Source: Planctomyces sp. SH-PL62
GTDB taxonomy: Bacteria; Planctomycetota; Planctomycetia; Isosphaerales; Isosphaeraceae
Assembly: GCF_001610895.1 (NCBI RefSeq)
Contig: NZ_CP011273.1
Span: 6,076,001 to 6,140,000 of the forward strand
DNA length: 64,000 bases
Direction: 5' to 3'
Both the position numbers and the translations under genes were made by a program. Positions within the stretch are counted from its first letter, which is position 1; the number at the start of each line of letters is the position of its first letter. Under the pieces are notes generated by a model. It did no database searches. It was not told the DNA's origin and saw nothing but the letters and a program-made list of their open reading frames with translations. Below are positions 3,302 to 18,903 of this stretch, in pieces.

Positions 3302-6022
3302 ATGGATGCCTCCGCGTCGCGGCGTCGCTGGCTTTCCGTCATGGGCGTCCGTCTCCCCCCGACATCCTCGGATGGTCATCGGGACCCCTGCTCGCCCCCC
3401 GGCCCCCGGCGCGGCCGGACGTTCTGGCGGCTCGGGTCGAGGATCGGGAAGCCCGGAGGCGTCCCCCCACCGGGCCGCAGCGGGATCGATTCGGACGCAC
3501 GCGCGTCGGCGTGGCCCCTCTACGCGGCGGGCCTGGCGATGGGGCTGACGGCGGTCGGGCTTCGGTCGGCCTTGCATCCGACGCTGGGTTTGGAATTTCC
3601 GCTGCTGACGTACTTCCCGGTGGTGGTCGCCGCGTCGTGTCTCATGGGCTTCGGCCCCGCCCTGGCGGCGCTCGGCGTGACGGTCGTGGGCGGGCTCTGG
3701 ACGTTGCTTCCGCCGCAACGCGCGATCGGCGTCGGGACGGCTCCGGTCCTGGGGCTGGGGACCTACACCCTGGCGGCGGCAGGGCTCGCCTGGCTGGTGG
3801 CCCGGATGCGGGCCGACCTGCGTCGCTCCGAATCCGCATGGTGCGCCGCGATGGATCGGCAATCGGAGTTGGAAGAGCTTCGCCGGCTCGAACAGGCCGA
3901 GGCGGAACGACTGCGTCGGGAGCAGGAGGCCCTGCGAGAGACGTCCGAGAGCCAGGCCGGACGGCTCGAGGAGCTCCTGAAGGAGCTTCGGGAGAAGAAC
4001 GCGTTCCTGTCGGCGACCCTCCGCCAGGTCCCCTCGGGAATCATCGTGGCCGAGGCCGGCACGTCGAACCTCCTGCTTCGCAACGACGAGGCCGAGCGGA
4101 TCATCCGGGGGAGCCTGCAACCGGGGCTTGGGATGGGGAGCCAGGCCGAGCCGGGGGATCTGATCGGCCGCCGTCCCGACGGCTCGCGCTACGAGCCCGA
4201 CGACTGGCCCCTAAGCCGCTCGCTCCGCAACGGCGAGGTGGTGTCGGACGAGGAGATCGAGCTGGTCTTCGCCGACGGCTCCAGCCGCCGGATCAGCGTC
4301 AACTCGGGTCCGGCGGTCGACGAACATGGGCGGGTGATCGCCGCGGTCGCCGCGCTCGACGACGTGACCGAGCGTCGCGCCGCCGAGACCGCCGCGACCG
4401 AGAGCGAGCGACAGTTCCGGCGGCTCGCCGAGGCCATCCCCCAGATCGTTTACATCACCCGGGCCGACGACACGATCGCCTACCTGAACCGTCGCTGGTT
4501 CGACTACACCGGGGCGTCGAGCGACCACCTCACGACCAAGGACGCCTGGCTGGAGACCGTCCACCCGGACGACGCGCCTCGAATCCGGGCCGCGCGGGCG
4601 AAGTCCAAGGAAGACGGCGGGCCGACCGAAATCGAGTACCGGGTCCGCGGCGCGGGGGGCGAGTACCGCTGGTTCCTGGGCCGGTCGATGTGGATCCGCG
4701 ACGACCGCGGCGCGCTGCTCTCCCGCTTCGGCACGGCGACCGACATCGACGACCGGAAGCGCGCCGAGCAAGCCTCGCGGTTCCTGGCCGACGCCGGGGC
4801 CAAGCTCGCGGCCGTCGTCGACGCCGAGACCACGCTCCGCGAGGTCGCCGGCCTGGCCGTGCCGTTCTTCGCCGACTGGTGCGCCGTCGACGTGCTCGAA
4901 GGTACGGGCGACCTCCGCCGCGTCGCCGTGGCGCACGATTCGCCCCACGCGGCCGGGGTGATCGACCTGGTCTCGCACCGCTACCGGCTCAGGGCCGACA
5001 TGCCTCGCGGCCTCTTCGAAGTCGTCGCCTCCCGAAAACCCGCCCTGATCGAGGAGGTCACCGAGGAACACCTGATCTCCGGCGCCCGCAACCCCGAGCA
5101 CCTGGAGGCCCTCCGCGCGTTCGCCCCGCGATCGTACCTGTGCGTCCCGCTGGTGGGCCGCGAGGGGGTCCTGGGCGCGCTCTCGTTCGCGACCACCCAC
5201 TCCGGCCGCCGCTTCGATCAGACCCACCTCGACCTCGCCGTCGACGTCGCCGGCCGGGCCGCGATCGCGCTGGAGAACGGCCGGCTCTACGACCGGCTCC
5301 GCGAGTCCGACCGCCGCAAGGACGACTTCCTCGCCACCCTCGCCCACGAGCTTCGCAACCCGATGGCGCCGATCCGCAACTCGGTCCAGATCCTCAAGAT
5401 GCGAGGCGACTCCGACCCCGACTCGAAGTGGGCGCGCGAGGTCATCGAGCGGCAGATCGGCCACCTTTCGCGACTCGTGGACGACCTCCTGGACGTGTCG
5501 CGACTCACCCGCGACCGGCTGGAGCTTCGGCTCGAACGGATCGACCTGTCCGAAGCCGTCCACGACGCGGTCGAGACCGCCCGGCCCATCTTCGACGACC
5601 TGGGCCACGACCTGCGGCTCGATCTCCCCGCCGGGCCGCTCCACCTTGACGGCGACCGGACCCGGCTGGCCCAGGTCCTCGCCAACCTGCTGGACAATGC
5701 CGCCAAGTTCTCGCCGCGAGGCACCCGCATCGATCTCGGGATCGCCCGCCGCAACGGCGACGTCGAAATCCTCGTGAAAGACCGCGGGGTCGGCATCCCC
5801 GCCGAGCAGCTCCCCCACGTCTTCGAGATGTTCGCGCAGCTCACCCCGGTCCTCCATCGCCCGCATGCGGGCCTGGGGATCGGCCTCGCCCTGGCCAGGG
5901 GGATCGTCGAGCTGCACCACGGCCACGTCGAGGCCCGGAGCGAAGGCCCCGGTCAGGGGAGCGAATTCCTGGTCCGGCTCCCCCTGGCCCGCGACGACGC
6001 CGAGCCGTTTTCGGCTTCTTGA
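3302..6022 (+). CDS. Membrane-bound sensor histidine kinase (KdpD-like membrane region, PAS, PAS, GAF, HisKA, HATPase_c)
   Basis: 906 residues. Residues about 70-170 hold three to four membrane segments of the DUF4118/KdpD type (LLTYFPVVVAASCLMGFGPA), followed by a Glu/Arg-rich coiled coil to about 235. Two PAS domains follow (about 240-350 and 375-490; second with AYLNRRWFDYTG), then a GAF domain (about 500-660) and the kinase core. The H-box is DDFLATLAHELRNP with phospho-acceptor His682. The N-box LLDNAAKF and G-boxes KDRGVGIP and GLGIGLALARG are intact, so it should autophosphorylate. There is no receiver domain and no response regulator nearby, making it an orphan kinase. The ATG at 3302 has a weak ribosome-binding site; an in-frame ATG at 3341 is possible. 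Confidence 0.92.
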   Translation: MDASASRRRWLSVMGVRLPPTSSDGHRDPCSPPGPRRGRTFWRLGSRIGKPGGVPPPGRSGIDSDARASAWPLYAAGLAMGLTAVGLRSALHPTLGLEFPLLTYFPVVVAASCLMGFGPALAALGVTVVGGLWTLLPPQRAIGVGTAPVLGLGTYTLAAAGLAWLVARMRADLRRSESAWCAAMDRQSELEELRRLEQAEAERLRREQEALRETSESQAGRLEELLKELREKNAFLSATLRQVPSGIIVAEAGTSNLLLRNDEAERIIRGSLQPGLGMGSQAEPGDLIGRRPDGSRYEPDDWPLSRSLRNGEVVSDEEIELVFADGSSRRISVNSGPAVDEHGRVIAAVAALDDVTERRAAETAATESERQFRRLAEAIPQIVYITRADDTIAYLNRRWFDYTGASSDHLTTKDAWLETVHPDDAPRIRAARAKSKEDGGPTEIEYRVRGAGGEYRWFLGRSMWIRDDRGALLSRFGTATDIDDRKRAEQASRFLADAGAKLAAVVDAETTLREVAGLAVPFFADWCAVDVLEGTGDLRRVAVAHDSPHAAGVIDLVSHRYRLRADMPRGLFEVVASRKPALIEEVTEEHLISGARNPEHLEALRAFAPRSYLCVPLVGREGVLGALSFATTHSGRRFDQTHLDLAVDVAGRAAIALENGRLYDRLRESDRRKDDFLATLAHELRNPMAPIRNSVQILKMRGDSDPDSKWAREVIERQIGHLSRLVDDLLDVSRLTRDRLELRLERIDLSEAVHDAVETARPIFDDLGHDLRLDLPAGPLHLDGDRTRLAQVLANLLDNAAKFSPRGTRIDLGIARRNGDVEILVKDRGVGIPAEQLPHVFEMFAQLTPVLHRPHAGLGIGLALARGIVELHHGHVEARSEGPGQGSEFLVRLPLARDDAEPFSAS

Positions 6023-7878: not shown

Positions 7879-9231
7879 TCAGCCCTGGATCGCCTCGGCC
7901 TCGCTCGTGGAGGGGAGGCGGCTGTCGGTCAGGCCCCGGACCAGCGGACCCTCGGCGCGGCCGGTGATGAGCCGAGCCCCGCGGTCGTAGCTGAGGTAGG
8001 ACCAGGCCCACTGGATCACCACCAGCAGCCGGTTGCGGAAGCCGATCAGGAAGAGGACGTGGACGAACAGCCAGAGCATCCAGGCCGGGAAGCCGGAGAA
8101 CTGGAACCTGCCGAGATGGGCCACCGCCGCGCCTCGGCCGATGGTCGCCATCGAGCCCTTGTCGACGTATCGGAACGGCTCCGTCGGCTGGCCACGGAAC
8201 GTCCGGATGATGTTCGCGGCCGCGTGCTTGCCCATCTGCGCGGCGGCGGGGGCCACGCCGGGGACCGGCTTGCCGTCTTGCTCCAGGTGCGCGAGGTCGC
8301 CGATGACGTAGACCTCGGGATGGCCGGGGATGGTCAGGTCGGGCTGGACCATCACCCGCCCGGCGCGGTCGAGCGGCACGCCCAGCGTCCGACCCAGCGG
8401 CGACGCCGCCACGCCGGCCGCCCACAAGACGGTCCGCGACGCGATCCGCTCGTCGCCGATATGGACCCCCTCGGCGTCGATGTGAGTCACGATCGAGCCG
8501 GTGCGCACCTCGACGCCCAGCCCTTCCAGTTGCCTCCTGGCGCTCTCGGAGAGCTTGGGCGAATAGGGGGTCAGAACTCGCGGCGAGCCCTCCACCAGGA
8601 TCACCCGCGCCGTCGCGGGGTCGATGTGGACGAAGTCCTTCGCCAGCGTCATCCGGGCCACGTCGCGAAGGGCGCCGGCCAACTCCACCCCGGTCGGCCC
8701 GCCGCCGACCACCACGAACGTCAGCCACTCGCGCCTCAGCGTCTCGTCGGTCTCGCGCTCGGCGATCTCGAACGCCAGCAGCATCCGACGGCGGATCTCC
8801 AGCGCGTCTTCCACCGACTTCAGGCCCGGCGCGTGCTCCTCCCACTCGGGATGGCCGAAGTACGAATGCGTCGCCCCGGAGGCCAGCACCAGCACGTCGT
8901 ACGGCGCCTCGCCGTCGGCCAGCGTCACCACCCGGCGGTCGAGGTCGATCCCCGTCACGTCCGCCAGCAAGGTCTCCGTGTTCTTCCGCCCTCGCACGAT
9001 CCGACGGATCGGCCCGGCGATGTCGCTGGGGTTCAGCGAGGCCGTCGCCACCTGATACAGCAAGGGCTGGAACAGGTGGTGATTCTGGCGATCAATGACC
9101 GAGACATACGCCGAGGACTTCCGCAGCCCCTTGATCACCGCCAGCCCCGCGAACCCCGCGCCGATCACCACGATCCGACGCGGGCGGTCCCCAAAGGTCC
9201 GCTCATCCGACTTCCGGCCCCAGATGCACAC
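7879..9231 (-). CDS. ndh: Type II NADH dehydrogenase (NDH-2), single-subunit FAD enzyme
   Basis: 450 residues. Two Rossmann motifs are clear: VVIGAGFAGLAVIKGL near the N-terminus for FAD and VVVGGGPTGVELAGAL in the middle for NADH. The C-terminal region has the family motif around QMGKHAAANI and a membrane-binding hydrophobic stretch (FPAWMLWLFVHVLFLIGF) typical of NDH-2. The enzyme passes electrons from NADH to quinone at the inner face of the membrane without pumping protons. The start is GTG at 9231, supported by AAGGAGG with an 8-base spacing. It lies alone between the GH99-like gene and AlgH, all on the minus strand. Confidence 0.93.
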   Translation of the reverse strand: MCIWGRKSDERTFGDRPRRIVVIGAGFAGLAVIKGLRKSSAYVSVIDRQNHHLFQPLLYQVATASLNPSDIAGPIRRIVRGRKNTETLLADVTGIDLDRRVVTLADGEAPYDVLVLASGATHSYFGHPEWEEHAPGLKSVEDALEIRRRMLLAFEIAERETDETLRREWLTFVVVGGGPTGVELAGALRDVARMTLAKDFVHIDPATARVILVEGSPRVLTPYSPKLSESARRQLEGLGVEVRTGSIVTHIDAEGVHIGDERIASRTVLWAAGVAASPLGRTLGVPLDRAGRVMVQPDLTIPGHPEVYVIGDLAHLEQDGKPVPGVAPAAAQMGKHAAANIIRTFRGQPTEPFRYVDKGSMATIGRGAAVAHLGRFQFSGFPAWMLWLFVHVLFLIGFRNRLLVVIQWAWSYLSYDRGARLITGRAEGPLVRGLTDSRLPSTSEAEAIQG

Positions 9232-13117: not shown

Positions 13118-13648
13118 ATGCCCGTGCTGAGACAGATCGCGCAACTGGGAAACCCGGTCCTTCGGACGCCGGCCGAGGAGGTCGCGTTCCCGCTCTCGGA
13201 GGAGGTGCGGGAGCTGATCGACGACATGCTGGCGACGCTTCGCGAGGCCGACGGCGTGGGGATCGCCGCGCCCCAGGTCCACGAACCGCTCCAGATCTTC
13301 CTGGTCGCGCCGAAGCCGAACCCGCGCTATCCCGACGCGGTCGAGGAGGCCCCGATCGTCGCGATCAATCCCGAGATCGTGGAGCGCTCGGACGAGATGG
13401 TGAAGGGCTGGGAAGGCTGCCTGAGCATCCCCGGCCTCCGCGGCGAGGTCCCCCGCCATCGGCGGATCGTCGCGCGGTATCGGGACGTCCACGGCGCGGA
13501 GGTCGTCCGCGAGTTCGAGGACTTCGTCGCCCGCATCTTCCAGCACGAGGACGACCACCTGCGGGGCCTGGTCTTCCTCGACCGCCTGGAAAGCCCCCGC
13601 GACGTGGTCGCCGAGCGCGAGTACCGGAGACGGCTCGCGCCCGGCTGA
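13118..13648 (+). CDS. def: Peptide deformylase
   Basis: 176 residues, normal length. All three family motifs are present: GVGIAAPQ (motif I), EGCLSIPG (motif II, metal-binding Cys) and QHEDDHLRG (motif III, HExxH with the two metal His and catalytic Glu). The enzyme removes the formyl group from nascent N-terminal Met. The usual partner fmt is not adjacent. Start ATG has GGAGG about 10 bases upstream. It converges on the small cupin gene with a gap of only 37 bases. Confidence 0.95.
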   Translation: MPVLRQIAQLGNPVLRTPAEEVAFPLSEEVRELIDDMLATLREADGVGIAAPQVHEPLQIFLVAPKPNPRYPDAVEEAPIVAINPEIVERSDEMVKGWEGCLSIPGLRGEVPRHRRIVARYRDVHGAEVVREFEDFVARIFQHEDDHLRGLVFLDRLESPRDVVAEREYRRRLAPG

Positions 13649-13685: not shown

Positions 13686-14030
13686 TCACGAGCCGGCGGA
13701 CGCCAGCTTGGTGACCAGGACGACGGAGTCCTCCACCGCGACGAGCGAATGGGGCTCGCGCGGGGTGAGGTGGAGCAGATGACCGGCGGCGAGGTCGTGG
13801 TCGACCCCGCCGACCTTGAAGGCGACCCGGCCGGAGAGGCAATGCACGGTGATCGGCCCCGGGGCGTGGTGCTCCGGGACGTCGGCGCCCTTCGCCAGCG
13901 ACAGCCGCTTCAGCTCGAAGGCTTCGGTCTTCGCCAGGGTCTCGACCTTGCGTCCGCCCGGAGGGGCCGCGGCCCCCCCGAGCAGGTCGATCACGCCGAG
14001 AAACGGTCCAGGTTCGGAATGCGCGGACAT
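13686..14030 (-). CDS. Small cupin-domain protein, last gene of the NO-detoxification operon
   Basis: 114 residues forming a single cupin: PEHHAPGPITVHCLSGRVAF is motif 1 with two His and the central Gly, and LTPREPHSLVAVEDSVVL is motif 2 with the metal His. It therefore likely binds a metal. It starts 39 bases after the qNOR stop codon with a GAGG ribosome-binding site 5 bases before the ATG, so co-transcription with norZ is expected. Similar one-domain cupins are seen near nitrogen-oxide genes, but the role (metal or NO sensing, or enzyme) is unknown here. Confidence 0.85.
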   Translation of the reverse strand: MSAHSEPGPFLGVIDLLGGAAAPPGGRKVETLAKTEAFELKRLSLAKGADVPEHHAPGPITVHCLSGRVAFKVGGVDHDLAAGHLLHLTPREPHSLVAVEDSVVLVTKLASAGS

Positions 14031-14069
14031 GACGACCTCATTTCAGGTGCTGGGGGAATCGGAGACGGC

Positions 14070-16367
14070 TCAGCGGACGGCCGCCTCCTCGACGGGGTAA
14101 GTGCGACCCACGGCGTCGGGCCCGGGTTCGAGCGACCAGCCCCCCTTCAGGCCCAGGACGAACCAGCCCAGGGCCACGATCCCGGCGGCGAAGATCGTGT
14201 CGCCGACCACGCGCATCCAGCGGAGGGTGTGCATGGTGGGCGTCTGCATGAACTCGGCCGAGCGGGCGTACCACATCCCGTGCTCGACGCTCGCCCAGGT
14301 CTGGAGCAGCCCCACCGGGAGAAGGCTGAGCAGGACCATCAGCGCCAGGCCGATGTTGATGGACCAGAAGGCGAACGAGAGCACGCCCGTCTTCCAGGCC
14401 CGGTGGATCGTCAGCCCCTTGAGGCAGAACAGCGTCAGGCCGATCCCCAGCATGCCGTAGACGCCGAAGAGCGCCGTATGGCCGTGGACGGGGGTCGTGT
14501 TCAGCCCCTGCATGTAGTAGAGGGCGATCGGCGGATTGATGAAGAAGCCGAACAGCCCCGCCCCCACCAGGTTCCAGAACGCCACCGAGACGAAGAAGAG
14601 GATCGGCATCCGATAGGCCGAGACCCACGGCCGCACCCGGCTCAGCGACAGGTTCTCATAAGCCTCGAAGCCGATCAGCACCAGAGGCACGACCTCCAGG
14701 GCGCTGAAGATCGCCCCCAGGGCCGTCACCACCGTCGGCGTGCCGGTGAAGTATAGGTGGTGGAACGTGCCGATGATCCCCCCGGAGAGGAAGATCGACG
14801 TCGAGAACAGGACCGCCGCCGCCGCCGTCGACGTCCGCAGCAGGCCCATCCGGGTGAACAGGAACGCGATCACGACCGTCGCGAAGACCTCGAAGAAGCC
14901 CTCGACCCACAGGTGGACGACCCACCACCGCCAGTATTCGGCGATCGCCAGGTTGGTGTGCCGGTGCCACATCAGGCCCGGCGTGTAGAACAGCGGGATC
15001 GCCGCCGAGGCCAGCAGGAAGAGCCCGAGCAGGTGTCGGTTGGTGTCGGGGTGGCGGAACGCCGGCGCGATGGCGCGGACCATCAGCGCCAGCCAGAGGA
15101 ACAGCCCGACCGTCAGGAAGATCTGCCAGAACCTGCCGAGATCCACATATTCATAACCCTGGTGCCCGAACCAGAAGTTGGCGGTGTTCCCCAGCCGCTG
15201 CTGCACCCCCAACCACTGCCCGAACATCGAGCCCACCACGATGATCAGCACGCAGACGAACAGGAAGTCCACGCCCAGCTTCTGGAACTTCGGCTCGTGG
15301 CCGGAGACGGCCGGCGCGATGAACAGCCCCGTGGCCAGCCACGCGGTCGCGATCCAGAAGATGCCGAGCTGCGTGTGCCAGGTCCGCGTCACGCTGTAGG
15401 GGAGCCACTCGGCCAGGGGGAAGCCGTAGAAGCCCGAGCCCTCCACCCCGTAGTGCGCCGTCACCGCCCCCAGGCCCACCTGCACCACCGCCAGCGCGAT
15501 GACCACCCAGAAGTACTTGAGCGTCGCCCGCATCGAGGGGGTCGGGTTCAGGGCCAGGAGCGGGTCCCGCTCGGGGGGCTCGTGGCGGTCCAGATCCTCC
15601 CGCCCGCGCTCGACGGCGAAGTACCAGGCCAGCGCGCCGATGCCGGCCAGGAGCAGCACGAAGCTGGCGACCGACCAGACGATGATCTGGCCCGACGGCC
15701 GGTTCTCGATCAGCGTCTCCGAAGGCCAGTTGTTCGTGTACGTGATCGTCTCGCCCGGGCGCTCGGTCGAGCAGGCCCAGGCCGCCCAGAAGAAGAACGC
15801 CGCCAACTGCGCCCGACGCTCCGGCGTCTTGATCGACGAGGCCGGGATCGCGTACGCGTCGCGCAGCTCGTGCAGCTCCGGGTCGTCGCCGAACAGGGCG
15901 TCGTAGTGCGAGGCGACCGCCGCCATCGCCTGGGCCCGGACCGGCGAGACCGTCACGTCGCCCGTCGCCGGGTCGTACGTGTTGCGGCGGATCTCGCCCT
16001 TGAGCCGCTCTCGAAGGCCCGCGCGAGCCTCGGCGTCGAGCGCCTCATAGTTCGCGGCCCCTTTCTCCACGGCCCAGTGGTCCAGCATCCACGTCAGTTC
16101 GCGATGGAGATAGTCGGCCGACCAGTCCGGCGCGACGTACGCGCCGTGGCCCCAGACCGAGCCCACCTCCTGGCCCCCCATCGACTGCCAGACGTTCTGC
16201 CCCTCCTTCACGTCCTCGCCCGTGAAGAGGACCTTCCCCTCCGTCGTCACCACCCGCTCCGGGACCGGCGGGGCCATCCGATACAGCTCGGTCCCGTAAT
16301 AAATCAGGACCGCGAACGATCCGATGATGACCGTCGCCAACCCCAGCCACAACCTGCCATAGCGCAT
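14070..16367 (-). CDS. norZ: Quinol-dependent nitric oxide reductase (qNOR)
   Basis: 765 residues, the size of single-subunit qNOR, in which a NorC-like N-terminal extension (residues about 30-230, containing GQNVWQSMGGQEVGSVWGHG and HRELTWMLDHW) is fused to a 12-helix NorB core. Core motifs include HTQLGIFWIATAW, the region RWWVVHLWVEGFFEVFA (haem and FeB ligands and the conserved Glu), HHLYFTGTP and GHTALFGVYGMLGIG. It reduces 2 NO to N2O with quinol at the membrane. No nitrite reductase or N2O reductase is in the window, so detoxification rather than full denitrification is the likely role. Start ATG has GGGGAG 6 bases upstream. It follows the truncated haemoglobin gene by about 100 bases. 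Confidence 0.95.
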   Translation of the reverse strand: MRYGRLWLGLATVIIGSFAVLIYYGTELYRMAPPVPERVVTTEGKVLFTGEDVKEGQNVWQSMGGQEVGSVWGHGAYVAPDWSADYLHRELTWMLDHWAVEKGAANYEALDAEARAGLRERLKGEIRRNTYDPATGDVTVSPVRAQAMAAVASHYDALFGDDPELHELRDAYAIPASSIKTPERRAQLAAFFFWAAWACSTERPGETITYTNNWPSETLIENRPSGQIIVWSVASFVLLLAGIGALAWYFAVERGREDLDRHEPPERDPLLALNPTPSMRATLKYFWVVIALAVVQVGLGAVTAHYGVEGSGFYGFPLAEWLPYSVTRTWHTQLGIFWIATAWLATGLFIAPAVSGHEPKFQKLGVDFLFVCVLIIVVGSMFGQWLGVQQRLGNTANFWFGHQGYEYVDLGRFWQIFLTVGLFLWLALMVRAIAPAFRHPDTNRHLLGLFLLASAAIPLFYTPGLMWHRHTNLAIAEYWRWWVVHLWVEGFFEVFATVVIAFLFTRMGLLRTSTAAAAVLFSTSIFLSGGIIGTFHHLYFTGTPTVVTALGAIFSALEVVPLVLIGFEAYENLSLSRVRPWVSAYRMPILFFVSVAFWNLVGAGLFGFFINPPIALYYMQGLNTTPVHGHTALFGVYGMLGIGLTLFCLKGLTIHRAWKTGVLSFAFWSINIGLALMVLLSLLPVGLLQTWASVEHGMWYARSAEFMQTPTMHTLRWMRVVGDTIFAAGIVALGWFVLGLKGGWSLEPGPDAVGRTYPVEEAAVR

Positions 16368-16469
16368 GCTCGCTCCCCTTTCGACCGCCGCGCCCGAGCC
16401 CTCGCCCGGCCGCCTCGACGTTCACGTTGATGGCTGACGCTCCACCGTGAATCCTCAGCCCTGCCCAGC

Positions 16470-16919
16470 TCAGCTCCGCTCGGAATCGAGCCGAGCCTTC
16501 GGCCCGACCAGCCCCAGCGACCTCGTCATCGCCTCGCGCATCCGACGGGCACGCTCAAGGAACGCCTCGGCCTCGGCGGGGGAGCAGACGTCGCGGGTCG
16601 TGGCCTCGAAAAGCGTCACCCAGCGGTCGAAATGCCCGCCGGTCAGCCCGTCGATCCCCTGATGGACCTGCACCGGCCGGCCCTGGTAGCGACCGGTCCC
16701 GCGCATCACCGCCGACCAGAAGTCCACCATCCGACCCAGATGCCGGTCCCAGTCGTCGATATGCTCGGCGAAGATCGGGCCTAAAACAACGTCTTCCTGC
16801 GCCCGACGGTAGAATTCGCCCACCAACTCGCGGATCCGAGCCTCCGTCACCCCGGCGACCGGCTCCGAACCCGGCCCCGCCGCTCGCGCGTACAGACCTG
16901 GTGTGTATGATGTCGTCAC
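16470..16919 (-). CDS. Group III truncated haemoglobin
   Basis: 149 residues. The pattern DDWDRHLGRMVDFWSAVMRG with RYQGRPVQVHQG, then HFDRWVTLFEATTRD carrying the proximal His, is typical of class 3 truncated globins. These bind haem and are linked to NO or oxygen chemistry. It is the first gene of the minus-strand operon with norZ and the cupin and is transcribed from the promoter shared with the NsrR-type regulator. I prefer GTG at 16919, which has GGGGAGG 8 bases upstream; the longer frame to 16961 adds an unconvincing Gly/Arg stretch. Confidence 0.9.
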   Translation of the reverse strand: MTTSYTPGLYARAAGPGSEPVAGVTEARIRELVGEFYRRAQEDVVLGPIFAEHIDDWDRHLGRMVDFWSAVMRGTGRYQGRPVQVHQGIDGLTGGHFDRWVTLFEATTRDVCSPAEAEAFLERARRMREAMTRSLGLVGPKARLDSERS

Positions 16920-16990
16920 GACCTCGCCCTCCCCGCTCAGGCCGCCCCGATCGCCTCGCACTCGTCGCGAACGTGCCGGCCGAGCCTTTT

Positions 16991-17013
16991 AATCTGCATT
17001 CGACATGCATATT
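16991..17013. promoter_or_regulatory. Predicted NsrR-type operator (9-5-9 inverted repeat)
   Basis: AATCTGCAT, five bases, ATGCATATT: arms match at 8 of 9 positions and the total length of 23 bases with TGCAT/ATGCA half-sites agrees with the NsrR consensus known from proteobacteria. It lies between the divergent haemoglobin-norZ-cupin operon and the regulator gene and overlaps an AT-rich TATTATT stretch that could be a -10 element. Occupied operator would therefore block both directions and be released by NO. Confidence 0.7.
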
Positions 17014-17089
17014 ATTGAGCCGGCGGGGCCGTGTCAATCGGGCGCTGGGGCGCGAGCCCGGACTGGAGACGAAGGAGCGACGGTCGACC

Positions 17090-17560
17090 ATGCACTTGAC
17101 GCAGTTCTCGGACTACGCCATGAGAGCGGTACTGTACCTGGGGAGTCGCGGCGACCGATTGGCGTCGGTCGAGGAGATCAGCCGCGCCTACGGGATCTCC
17201 CGGCATCATCTGGTGCGGGTGGCCCAGACGTTGACGGAGCTGGGGGTGGTGACGGCCCAACGCGGCCGCGGCGGAGGGATGCGCCTGGCCATGCAGCCCT
17301 CGGCGATCAACATCGGCTGGCTGATCCGCAGCACCGAGCCCCATTTCGACATCGTGGAATGCTTCCGTCCCGAGTCCAACACCTGCCCCATCGCCCCCGC
17401 ATGCGGCCTCAAGGGGGCCCTGCATCGGGCGCGCGACGCGTTCCTCGCCGTCCTCGACGAATACACGCTCGACCAGTTCCTGACCCGCAAGGACGAGCTG
17501 ATCCCCCTCCTCGACCTCGCCCTGGCTCGCAAGCCCGAGCCGAAGCCCGACGCAGACTGA
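17090..17560 (+). CDS. nsrR: Rrf2-family transcriptional regulator, NsrR type (NO-sensing Fe-S repressor)
   Basis: 156 residues. The N-terminal winged helix MHLTQFSDYAMRAVLYLGSR and the recognition region SRHHLVRVAQTLTELGVV are typical of NsrR. The GRGGGMRLA wing follows. Three cysteines occur in ECFRPESNTCPIAPACGL, matching the C-X8-C-X5-C cluster of NsrR proteins that ligate an Fe-S centre destroyed by NO. It is divergent from the haemoglobin/qNOR/cupin operon, which it presumably represses through the palindrome at 16991. Start ATG 17090 has GAAGGAG upstream; the longer open frame to 16901 runs through the operator and is rejected. Confidence 0.9.
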   Translation: MHLTQFSDYAMRAVLYLGSRGDRLASVEEISRAYGISRHHLVRVAQTLTELGVVTAQRGRGGGMRLAMQPSAINIGWLIRSTEPHFDIVECFRPESNTCPIAPACGLKGALHRARDAFLAVLDEYTLDQFLTRKDELIPLLDLALARKPEPKPDAD

Positions 17561-17815: not shown

Positions 17816-18538
17816 TCAGCAGGGCTCGTCGCCCACCTTGCGACGGCAGACGGCGCCGCGGGCGGAATCGCCGGCGGCGAGGAAGATGGTGGTCATCCGG
17901 CGCAGGCAACAGCGGCACGACACGCCGTCGAGGTCGATGCCCCGAAGCAGGTCGTACGCCTCCTCGCGACGTCCCGCGTGATCGAGGAGCGTGGCGAGCG
18001 AGATCCGGTACAGGGCCACATCCGGGGCCAACTCGCACGCCCTCGCGACGAACGGCAGGGCGGCCTCGGCGGGACGTCCCAGACGCCGCACGTAGAACGC
18101 CGCGCCGAAATGGGCCTCGGCGTGCTCGGGAAGGCGGCGGATCAGCTCCAGGCAGACGTCCAGGGCCGGGCCGTACTCGCCCAGGTAGCCCAGGCCGGCG
18201 GCGATAGCCGGCATCAGCCGCTCCGGGCATCGGTCGTCCTCCGCCAACGCCTGATACACCGCCAGCGCCGGGCCGGGATGGCCCGTCCTCGCCAGGGTCT
18301 CGGCCAGGATGCAACTCGTCGACGGATCGAACGGGACCAGCGCCTGCGCCGTCTCCAACGCGTCGCGAGCCCCCGAAAAGTCCCCGGCGCGATGCCGCAA
18401 GAGCCCCACGAACCGCCAGAGCAGACCGTTCTCCCCCTCCCTCGCCAGCGCCTGCTCCGCCAGATCGCCGGCCTCGTCCATCTCCCCGGCCCCCGCCAGC
18501 TCGAAGCAACGCTTCAGGATCTCCCCGCCCTGGCTCAT
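17816..18538 (-). CDS. Tetratricopeptide-repeat protein with a Cys-rich C-terminus
   Basis: 240 residues, mostly TPR-like helical pairs (for example GDFSGARDALETAQALVPFD and LLWRFVGLLRH), cytosolic because no signal peptide or membrane segment is seen. The end is unusual: GVSCRCCLRRM then AVCRRKVGDEPC gives five Cys in the last 35 residues, which could bind metal or an Fe-S centre. The function is not recognised. I chose ATG 18538, which has AGGGGGAC before it, over the longer frame that starts within the upstream palindrome. The Fur-like box about 60 bases upstream suggests iron-dependent control. Confidence 0.75.
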   Translation of the reverse strand: MSQGGEILKRCFELAGAGEMDEAGDLAEQALAREGENGLLWRFVGLLRHRAGDFSGARDALETAQALVPFDPSTSCILAETLARTGHPGPALAVYQALAEDDRCPERLMPAIAAGLGYLGEYGPALDVCLELIRRLPEHAEAHFGAAFYVRRLGRPAEAALPFVARACELAPDVALYRISLATLLDHAGRREEAYDLLRGIDLDGVSCRCCLRRMTTIFLAAGDSARGAVCRRKVGDEPC

Positions 18539-18597
18539 GGCTGACGTCCCCCTGGTCACGATTTCCCCATCCCGATCCCGCCGCCGCGGGCATTGCA

Positions 18598-18616
18598 ATT
18601 GAGATTCAGTCTCAAT
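18598..18616. promoter_or_regulatory. Fur-like 19-base palindrome
   Basis: ATTGAGATTCAGTCTCAAT is a perfect 7-5-7 inverted repeat resembling Fur boxes of the form AATGAGAATCATTCTCATT. A second partly overlapping TATGAGATCTTATCA stretch follows directly (18617-18631), as in sites that bind two dimers. It is about 60 bases upstream of the TPR protein start. Assignment to Fur is by resemblance only. Confidence 0.55.
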
Positions 18617-18903
18617 ATGAGATCTTATCATCCTCGGCGCCGGGTGGGCTTGTCAAGGCGCAGGCACCTTCCCGGCCGTTGAAAAAGGGTCGAAAATCCT
18701 CACGAGCCCGAGCGTCCCACACGCCCACGCATCAACGATGTTTTACATCCACGCGTCTTCACCTAATTCCATCGGCCTAATAAATACGGTCTCGGAATTT
18801 CGACGCCGACCCCGTCCGGACGACCGCGCGAATTCGGCGCATCTTTGGTTTTAAAAAGAGTTTACAGACGACCGACAAAATCTTCGGGCGTCGAGGAAAG
18901 TCC

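Follow-up and report, generated by a model that had tools for sequence, protein, structure and literature searches.

Comparative genomics has revealed NsrR regulons in gamma- and betaproteobacteria, in Bacillus and in Streptomyces (Rodionov 2005, PMC1274295), with the flavohaemoglobin Hmp as their best-conserved known target. The glbN–reductase operon of Legionella is the predicted sole NsrR target in that genus (PMC1274295, PMC3820574). Among the phyla compared in a mat community, nsrR is reported only in the two studied (PMC10866078), and no planctomycete NsrR regulon was found among the titles and abstract starts listed in searches of open-licence PMC papers. The 64,000-nucleotide window of DNA analyzed here (C1:6076001-6140000 of the 6.78-Mb genome of the Isosphaeraceae planctomycete Planctomyces sp. 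SH-PL62) contains a gene for an NsrR-type Rrf2 repressor (nsrR; 17090-17560, plus strand, 156 residues). It diverges from an operon on the minus strand that encodes a truncated haemoglobin closest to group III (16470-16919, 149 residues), a quinol-type nitric oxide (NO) reductase (qNOR; 14070-16367, 765 residues) and a small cupin protein (13686-14030, 114 residues, with a single Cupin_2 domain at 36.9 bits), and one inverted repeat lies in between. The genes, coordinates and divergent arrangement given in a preliminary description of this DNA are correct. Its proposal of an NsrR regulon, in which the globin, qNOR and cupin genes face the regulator across one operator, is upheld as a prediction by the conservation of the site in relatives. 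The locus is very probably an NsrR-type regulon in which an NO-released repressor acts on the globin–qNOR–cupin operon. Like the regulons of Rodionov, it combines an Rrf2 repressor, a palindromic site of the gATGyAT-N5-ATrCATc type and targets that detoxify NO, with norB among the targets in some species (PMC1274295). It is unlike them in its phylum, Planctomycetota, and in having a group III globin where Hmp is the best-conserved known target (PMC1274295). As judged from its genes and site, the regulon appears to be a real case of a known type of NO-sensing circuit, here in another phylum, and it fits the known scheme. It would extend the NsrR regulon to Planctomycetota with operators that can be tested.

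The regulator matches the Rrf2 model of Pfam with 114.7 bits (cut-off 30) and TIGR00738 with 106.2 bits (cut-off 73.3), and the closest solved structure is that of Streptomyces coelicolor NsrR (E 6.9e-23). The cluster ligands of S. coelicolor NsrR are three Cys residues and Asp8, which forms a pair with Arg12, and Asn97 and Arg12 couple the cluster to DNA binding (PMC5411485). Arg60 in the wing touches DNA (PMC9338935). The three conserved Cys residues expected of NsrR are present in the regulator, in line with the three-Cys motif ascribed to it earlier, and Asp8, the fourth cluster ligand in NsrR, and Arg12 are present as sequence features. Among 59 genomes (the window genome and 58 relatives, five of which share its genus code), 12 have an ortholog, defined as one of the 12 proteins with at least 67% identity; the next best match in the 59 genomes has 40%. 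Cys91, Cys99, Cys105, Asp8, Arg12, Arg60 and Asn97 are invariant in all 12. The 12 genomes all belong to one family (f1, 12 of its 37 genomes), a distribution that would fit acquisition by transfer followed by losses. G001 and G004, which belong to the same genus as the window genome, have no regulator, globin or site.

The operator, predicted as the inverted repeat AATCTGCAT-TCGAC-ATGCATATT at 16991-17013 (no strand assigned), pairs at eight of nine positions. Its core TGYAT-N5-ATRCA matches the published NsrR consensus gATGyAT-N5-ATrCATc with 0 mismatches, and there are 3 mismatches over all 14 specified positions. As a control of the scoring, exact consensus sites lie before hmp and ytfE of E. 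coli, and the site before hcp has 3 mismatches. Most sites here have AATC or AATT as the outer half-site bases, where the E. coli genes hmp and ytfE both have AAGA; several sites here read ATCCAT. The early view that a single 9-5-9 repeat fits the proteobacterial NsrR site is thus right for the core but not for the bases outside it, and most relatives have one core mismatch. The operator is the single exact match to AATNTGCAT-N5-ATGCANATT in the 6.8-Mb genome, and the next two places differ from this sequence at 3 positions. Among the 33 repeats of the 9-5-9 form in the window, it alone has at least 13 A or T bases out of 23.

A search of 22 chosen genomes (the 12 with the ortholog and 10 without) for AATNTGYAT-N5-ATSCATATT, with up to two mismatches, found 20 places. 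Twelve of them lie ahead of nsrR, one in each genome with the ortholog, and three lie ahead of NO genes away from nsrR (trans copies, with 1, 0 and 2 mismatches), so that the same site, proposed earlier as something to look for in related genomes, was found with every copy of the regulator. The places with no more than one mismatch number 13, and each of them is ahead of nsrR (11) or of an NO-gene operon (2); one place with two mismatches lies ahead of qNOR; the reversed control pattern gave 2 matches in total. The trans copy in G002 precedes genes for a haem protein, globin and qNOR 1.28 Mb from nsrR, which there adjoins a cupin gene. The copy in G014 precedes globin, qNOR and cupin genes on a contig other than that of nsrR. 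In G018, a draft, the copy is likewise on a separate contig, ahead of a qNOR gene that is followed by one for a Tll0287-like protein. A cupin homolog is present at the regulon loci of G002, G003, G005, G019 and G014. In the genome_contigs collection, the 14 planctomycete loci closest to the window regulator (L141-L154, several of them from the same genomes) all carry such a site. Ahead of NsrR homologs of other phyla the repeat varies; it is perfect at L210 and L213, and at the other extreme none was found. In G014 an apparent remnant of nsrR (L131 about 8927-9166, plus strand) lies next to the trans operator and looks like the trace of a regulator formerly encoded there.

The operator overlaps the -10 box of a conserved sigma-70-type promoter. 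An alignment oriented in the direction of the target operon comprises 19 rows: 12 from the sites before nsrR, 3 from the trans copies and 4 from additional bins. The -35 box of the globin operon promoter, inferred as TTGACA by a consensus scan (17032-17037, minus strand), is exact in 15 rows. The inferred -10 box, TAATAT (17009-17014, minus strand), shares five bases with the operator and is exact in 18 rows; the rows were picked for holding the site, and the -10 count is therefore partly built in, which is not true of the -35 count. The spacing is 16 or 17 where the -35 box is seen. The two rows with a poor -35 box are those of G006 and of the trans copy in G018 (TTGCAA). An Acidobacteriota locus (L157), tried as a twentieth row, had no site and was dropped. 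The globin operon promoter is the sole promoter-like site in the consensus scan of 16850-17150 (shuffle mean 0.0). The scan missed TATTAT (17010-17015, plus strand), which may tentatively be regarded as the -10 box of nsrR's own promoter; its possible partner, TTTTAA (16987-16992, plus strand), is a poor -35 box, and the operator would lie mostly within the spacer.

An overlap of site and promoter is also found at B. subtilis hmp (PMC1274295). Since the operator overlaps the -10 box, repression by occlusion, lifted when NO damages the Fe-S cluster, is likely. By analogy with characterized NsrR proteins, the dimer would hold a [4Fe-4S] cluster, with Cys91, Cys99 and Cys105 from one subunit and Asp8 from its partner as ligands, and the cluster-bearing repressor would bind to 16991-17013. 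There it would mask the larger part of the -10 box as well as the start of the globin–qNOR–cupin operon, which is expected inside the operator near 17002 (minus strand). The operator would also be inside the possible promoter of nsrR, so that both the operon and nsrR would be kept low without NO. An attack of NO on the cluster would then take the repressor off the DNA, as with characterized NsrR proteins, and the operon would be transcribed. The membrane qNOR would convert NO to N2O with electrons from quinol, and the cytoplasmic globin would bind NO or oxidize it to nitrate.

Several observations on the repeat, its distribution and the regulator weigh against an NsrR-type regulon. The window contains 33 such 9-5-9 repeats, and when the 170 bp at 16920-17089 are shuffled with dinucleotides preserved, an equally good repeat turns up in 113 of 2000 cases. 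The operator repeat was not listed in a general repeat search of the window at the settings used. The search pattern was derived from the 12 nsrR sites, and hence only the three trans copies are independent, one of them with 2 mismatches. Five more places with two mismatches are in genomes without the ortholog; the one that was inspected, in G028, has no NO gene nearby. Eight of the 15 sites written out have C at a core position where the consensus has R, and two break another core position; in all, 10 of the 15 have one core mismatch. The gene opposite nsrR was identified in neither G006 nor G011, and G031 has no globin or qNOR at the thresholds used, the only target found there being a protein with one haem motif (the one-haem protein, see below). 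The repeat alone is insufficient to rule out chance, and its conservation among relatives is what places the operator beyond chance.

The repeat could also be a mere overlap of two divergent promoters with incidental symmetry, as the conserved block contains the TAATAT and TATTAT boxes and the shuffles yield such a repeat at the frequency given above. Both half-sites are retained in the trans copies of G002, G014 and G018, even though none of these serves an intact nsrR gene, and promoter overlap as the whole explanation is rejected on this ground; the G014 copy is less independent than the others, with the nsrR remnant beside it. At the 56 scanned loci of the one-haem protein, the motif with up to two mismatches is confined to seven, which are the full-length copies closest to the query (at least 59% identical to it), and the other 49 lack it. 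An incidental symmetry is therefore considered next to negligible in probability.

On the side of the regulator, the NCBIfam NsrR model gives 122.5 bits, below its cut-off of 182, and the RirA model gives nearly the same score, 119.6 bits, which is also below its own cut-off of 193. The NsrR model matches in 9 of 14 control genomes, including E. coli and B. subtilis, and 1 of the 14 passes the cut-off. E. coli and B. subtilis both have NsrR (PMC1274295), and hence the cut-off excludes at least one of the two. Because its score falls short of the curated cut-off, the protein is called NsrR-type here and not NCBIfam NsrR. A quick tree was built from 102 rows and drew warnings of long branches; in it the window regulator falls within a clade of 15 planctomycete rows (SH-aLRT 96), which adjoins one Acidobacteriota protein (SH-aLRT 90). 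NsrR and RirA are not cleanly split in this tree: a weakly supported branch (SH-aLRT 82) joins the window clade to E. coli NsrR, and the larger group that it defines also takes in a RirA-like row and 36 of the 44 Pseudomonadota rows. The Sinorhizobium protein with Asn8 in the tree (L247) is probably RirA. The other planctomycete Rrf2 rows, including three paralogs of the window genome, are placed elsewhere, and one further planctomycete bin (L208) groups with Verrucomicrobiota.

These scores, together with the fact that all 12 orthologs match both models, raise the possibility of a sensor of iron or cluster status, of the RirA or IscR kind, in which induction by NO would be a side effect at most. 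Position 8 of RirA is Asn (PMC10510648). This residue is absent from the regulator and from all its orthologs, in which Asp8, the NsrR ligand missing in RirA, is invariant (PMC10510648). The targets identified in relatives are NO genes, the cupin gene and the one-haem protein gene, and no gene for iron uptake or of the isc/suf type was recognized among them (in G006 and G011 the gene opposite nsrR carries no assignment). In view of Asp8 and these targets, an iron- or cluster-sensing role is regarded as very unlikely.

The qNOR aligns with solved qNOR structures over residues 3-744 with 873 bits, as opposed to about 85 bits with the two other NorB chains found, and it matches PF00115 (208 bits) and PF22085 (NorB_cytochrome_c-like, 249 bits). 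Both the COX1-type core and the N-terminal cytochrome c-like extension are present, and the conserved stretches with His and Glu align with those of the qNOR structures. NO dismutase is presumably a near relative of qNOR. As qNOR is a respiratory-type enzyme, the operon might be less for detoxification than for partial denitrification or for respiring NO from an external supply, which would still be compatible with NsrR-type control. No Cu nitrite reductase, the only other denitrification enzyme sought in the genome, was found there (nirS, nosZ and nrfA were not searched). By eye, no further denitrification gene was recognized among the reading frames called in 5000-32000 (not all of them searched against families), and the earlier impression that none is near remains unchanged. 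The globin in the same operon and the origin of the regulator from a stress-type repressor family also speak for detoxification, leaving a respiratory role rather unlikely.

A qNOR is present in 23 of the 59 genomes (E <= 1e-30) and is thus commoner than the globin. In five genomes without the regulator ortholog, the qNOR gene lies opposite a distant Rrf2 gene (26-31% identity, assigned by position; G007:C115, G026:C48, G028:C1, G037:C1 and G041:C102). The tree includes two of these five Rrf2 proteins (L237, L238), and both sit well away from the window clade. The regulator of qNOR therefore appears to have been exchanged among planctomycetes, and close relatives may run qNOR under a distant Rrf2 protein. 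A degraded qNOR gene (L047 4440-5264, plus strand) stands beside the regulator and one-haem protein genes in G034.

The globin matches Bac_globin with 33.6 bits (cut-off 21). Among solved structures the closest is 2ig3, a group III globin from Campylobacter jejuni (E 7e-12), followed by Chlamydomonas THB1 (2.2e-4) and HbN-type globins. Y37, H60 and H86, numbered for a product of 149 residues, align with Tyr, His and His of 2ig3, and these are taken to be positions B10, E7 and F8. By this comparison the globin is closest to the group III truncated haemoglobins, an assignment that denotes the nearest structure and not a match to a group III-specific model. The start codon was set by eye at the GTG at 16919, where relatives start at the matching codon; the mechanical reading frame starts at 16961. 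A close homolog (55-100% identity) is present in 7 of the 59 genomes, and each of these 7 also has the regulator (Fisher p 2.3e-6, without correction for relatedness); an eighth, weak match in G025 (E 3.9e-6, 44% over 76 residues) was left out of this count. The site precedes the globin operon in 7 of 7 globin-bearing genomes. In these genomes globin and regulator appear to travel together.

The earlier description of the globin class as seldom tied to NsrR is too strong as worded. A similar globin is encoded near an NsrR homolog at 7 of 65 loci outside Planctomycetota (L165, L170, L171, L176, L199-L201), in some alphaproteobacteria and a myxobacterial bin; the regulators of L165, L170 and L171 are nearly identical and those of L199-L201 wholly identical, leaving about three independent cases. 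A cluster on plasmid p2 of Rhizorhabdus dicambivorans, an alphaproteobacterial plasmid typed as conjugative, likewise brings together an annotated group III truncated haemoglobin (44% identity over 84 residues), an Rrf2 protein (52%), a cupin (33%) and a qNOR, but adds hmpA and DUF1971, and its cupin and qNOR genes follow on the side of the regulator. The Legionella glbN operon is similar in placing a truncated globin under NsrR. Its globin, unlike that of the window, is of the cyanoglobin type and comes with a ferredoxin reductase, and no qNOR or cupin is mentioned in the parts of the reports drawn on here (PMC1274295, PMC3820574). C. jejuni Ctb is, like the predicted product of the window operon, an NO-inducible group III globin, but it is regulated by NssR of the Crp/Fnr family and not by an Rrf2 protein (PMC3820574, PMC1274295; the group III label is from PDB 2ig3). 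The NO function of group III truncated globins has been called uncertain (PMC3820574), and the predicted operator would tie such globins to NO reduction beyond neighbourhood alone.

In Singulisphaera acidiphila DSM 18658 and Singulisphaera sp. GP187, among others, the divergent gene nearest to nsrR encodes the one-haem protein, which has about 450 residues and one CxxCH motif. The family is under an NsrR-type site in several Isosphaeraceae; copies lie at L145 5468-6829, L146 5470-6828 and L042 7615-8955 (all minus strand). The copy of the window genome (C1:5206459-5207697, plus strand; L060/L137) is 50% identical; no site was found ahead of it when one was sought, and it has no match in Pfam. 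A hydrophobic stretch close to its start, as seen on visual inspection without a signal-peptide program, makes secretion of the one-haem protein probable. Three members compared with Pfam and NCBIfam gave nothing but one Redoxin match at E 0.22, and one member had no match among PDB sequences up to E 1. An AlphaFold model has a pLDDT of 68.9 and a pTM of 0.72, with the haem stretch (residues 160-249) below 50, and a Foldseek search of PDB with this low-confidence model gave no match at E <= 0.001 (best 1.1). Members of the family occur in 46 of the 59 genomes of the comparison set and, in a phylum-wide sample of 294 genomes, in 33. A relative (37%) is present at the Acidobacteriota locus L157, which is sister to the planctomycete regulators, and G020, a genome without the regulator, has a 72% identical fragment without the site. 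It is possible, although tentative, that the one-haem protein of Singulisphaera and its relatives, which has the NsrR-type site in common with globin and qNOR, represents a new family of NO-handling enzymes or sensors outside the cytoplasm, and that NO defence is spread over several compartments, with this haem protein outside, qNOR in the membrane and the globin inside. The predicted sites would offer a first clue to the function of a haem protein family that is widespread in planctomycetes and has no Pfam or NCBIfam name. Other Rrf2 genes are found near one-haem protein genes in G040 and G054.

The description of the locus as a self-contained NO-defence circuit needs to be revised, because two further loci of the window genome bear on it, at least one of them a likely NO defence. 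At one, a flavohaemoglobin gene (L253 5655-6896, plus strand; G000:C1 about 5466000-5467900) lies opposite a gene for a different type of Rrf2 protein (L253 about 5027-5440, minus strand), and the two genes seem to form a second NO circuit. At the other (L056 8210-9701, minus strand; G000:C1 about 1367700-1369200), a gene for an NsrR-like Rrf2 protein, with 89 bits to the NsrR model and below its cut-off, is followed by genes for a Tll0287-like protein and a cupin that is 46% like that of the window.

Tll0287-like proteins are encoded beside a qNOR, one-haem protein or Rrf2 gene in three planctomycete cases (L132 9586-10113 and L136 9714-10253, plus strand; L056 8633-9205, minus strand). Within the window, a peptide deformylase gene (13118-13648) converges with the cupin gene and a gene for a TPR protein (17816-18631) lies past the regulator, and by appearance both stand outside the NO system.

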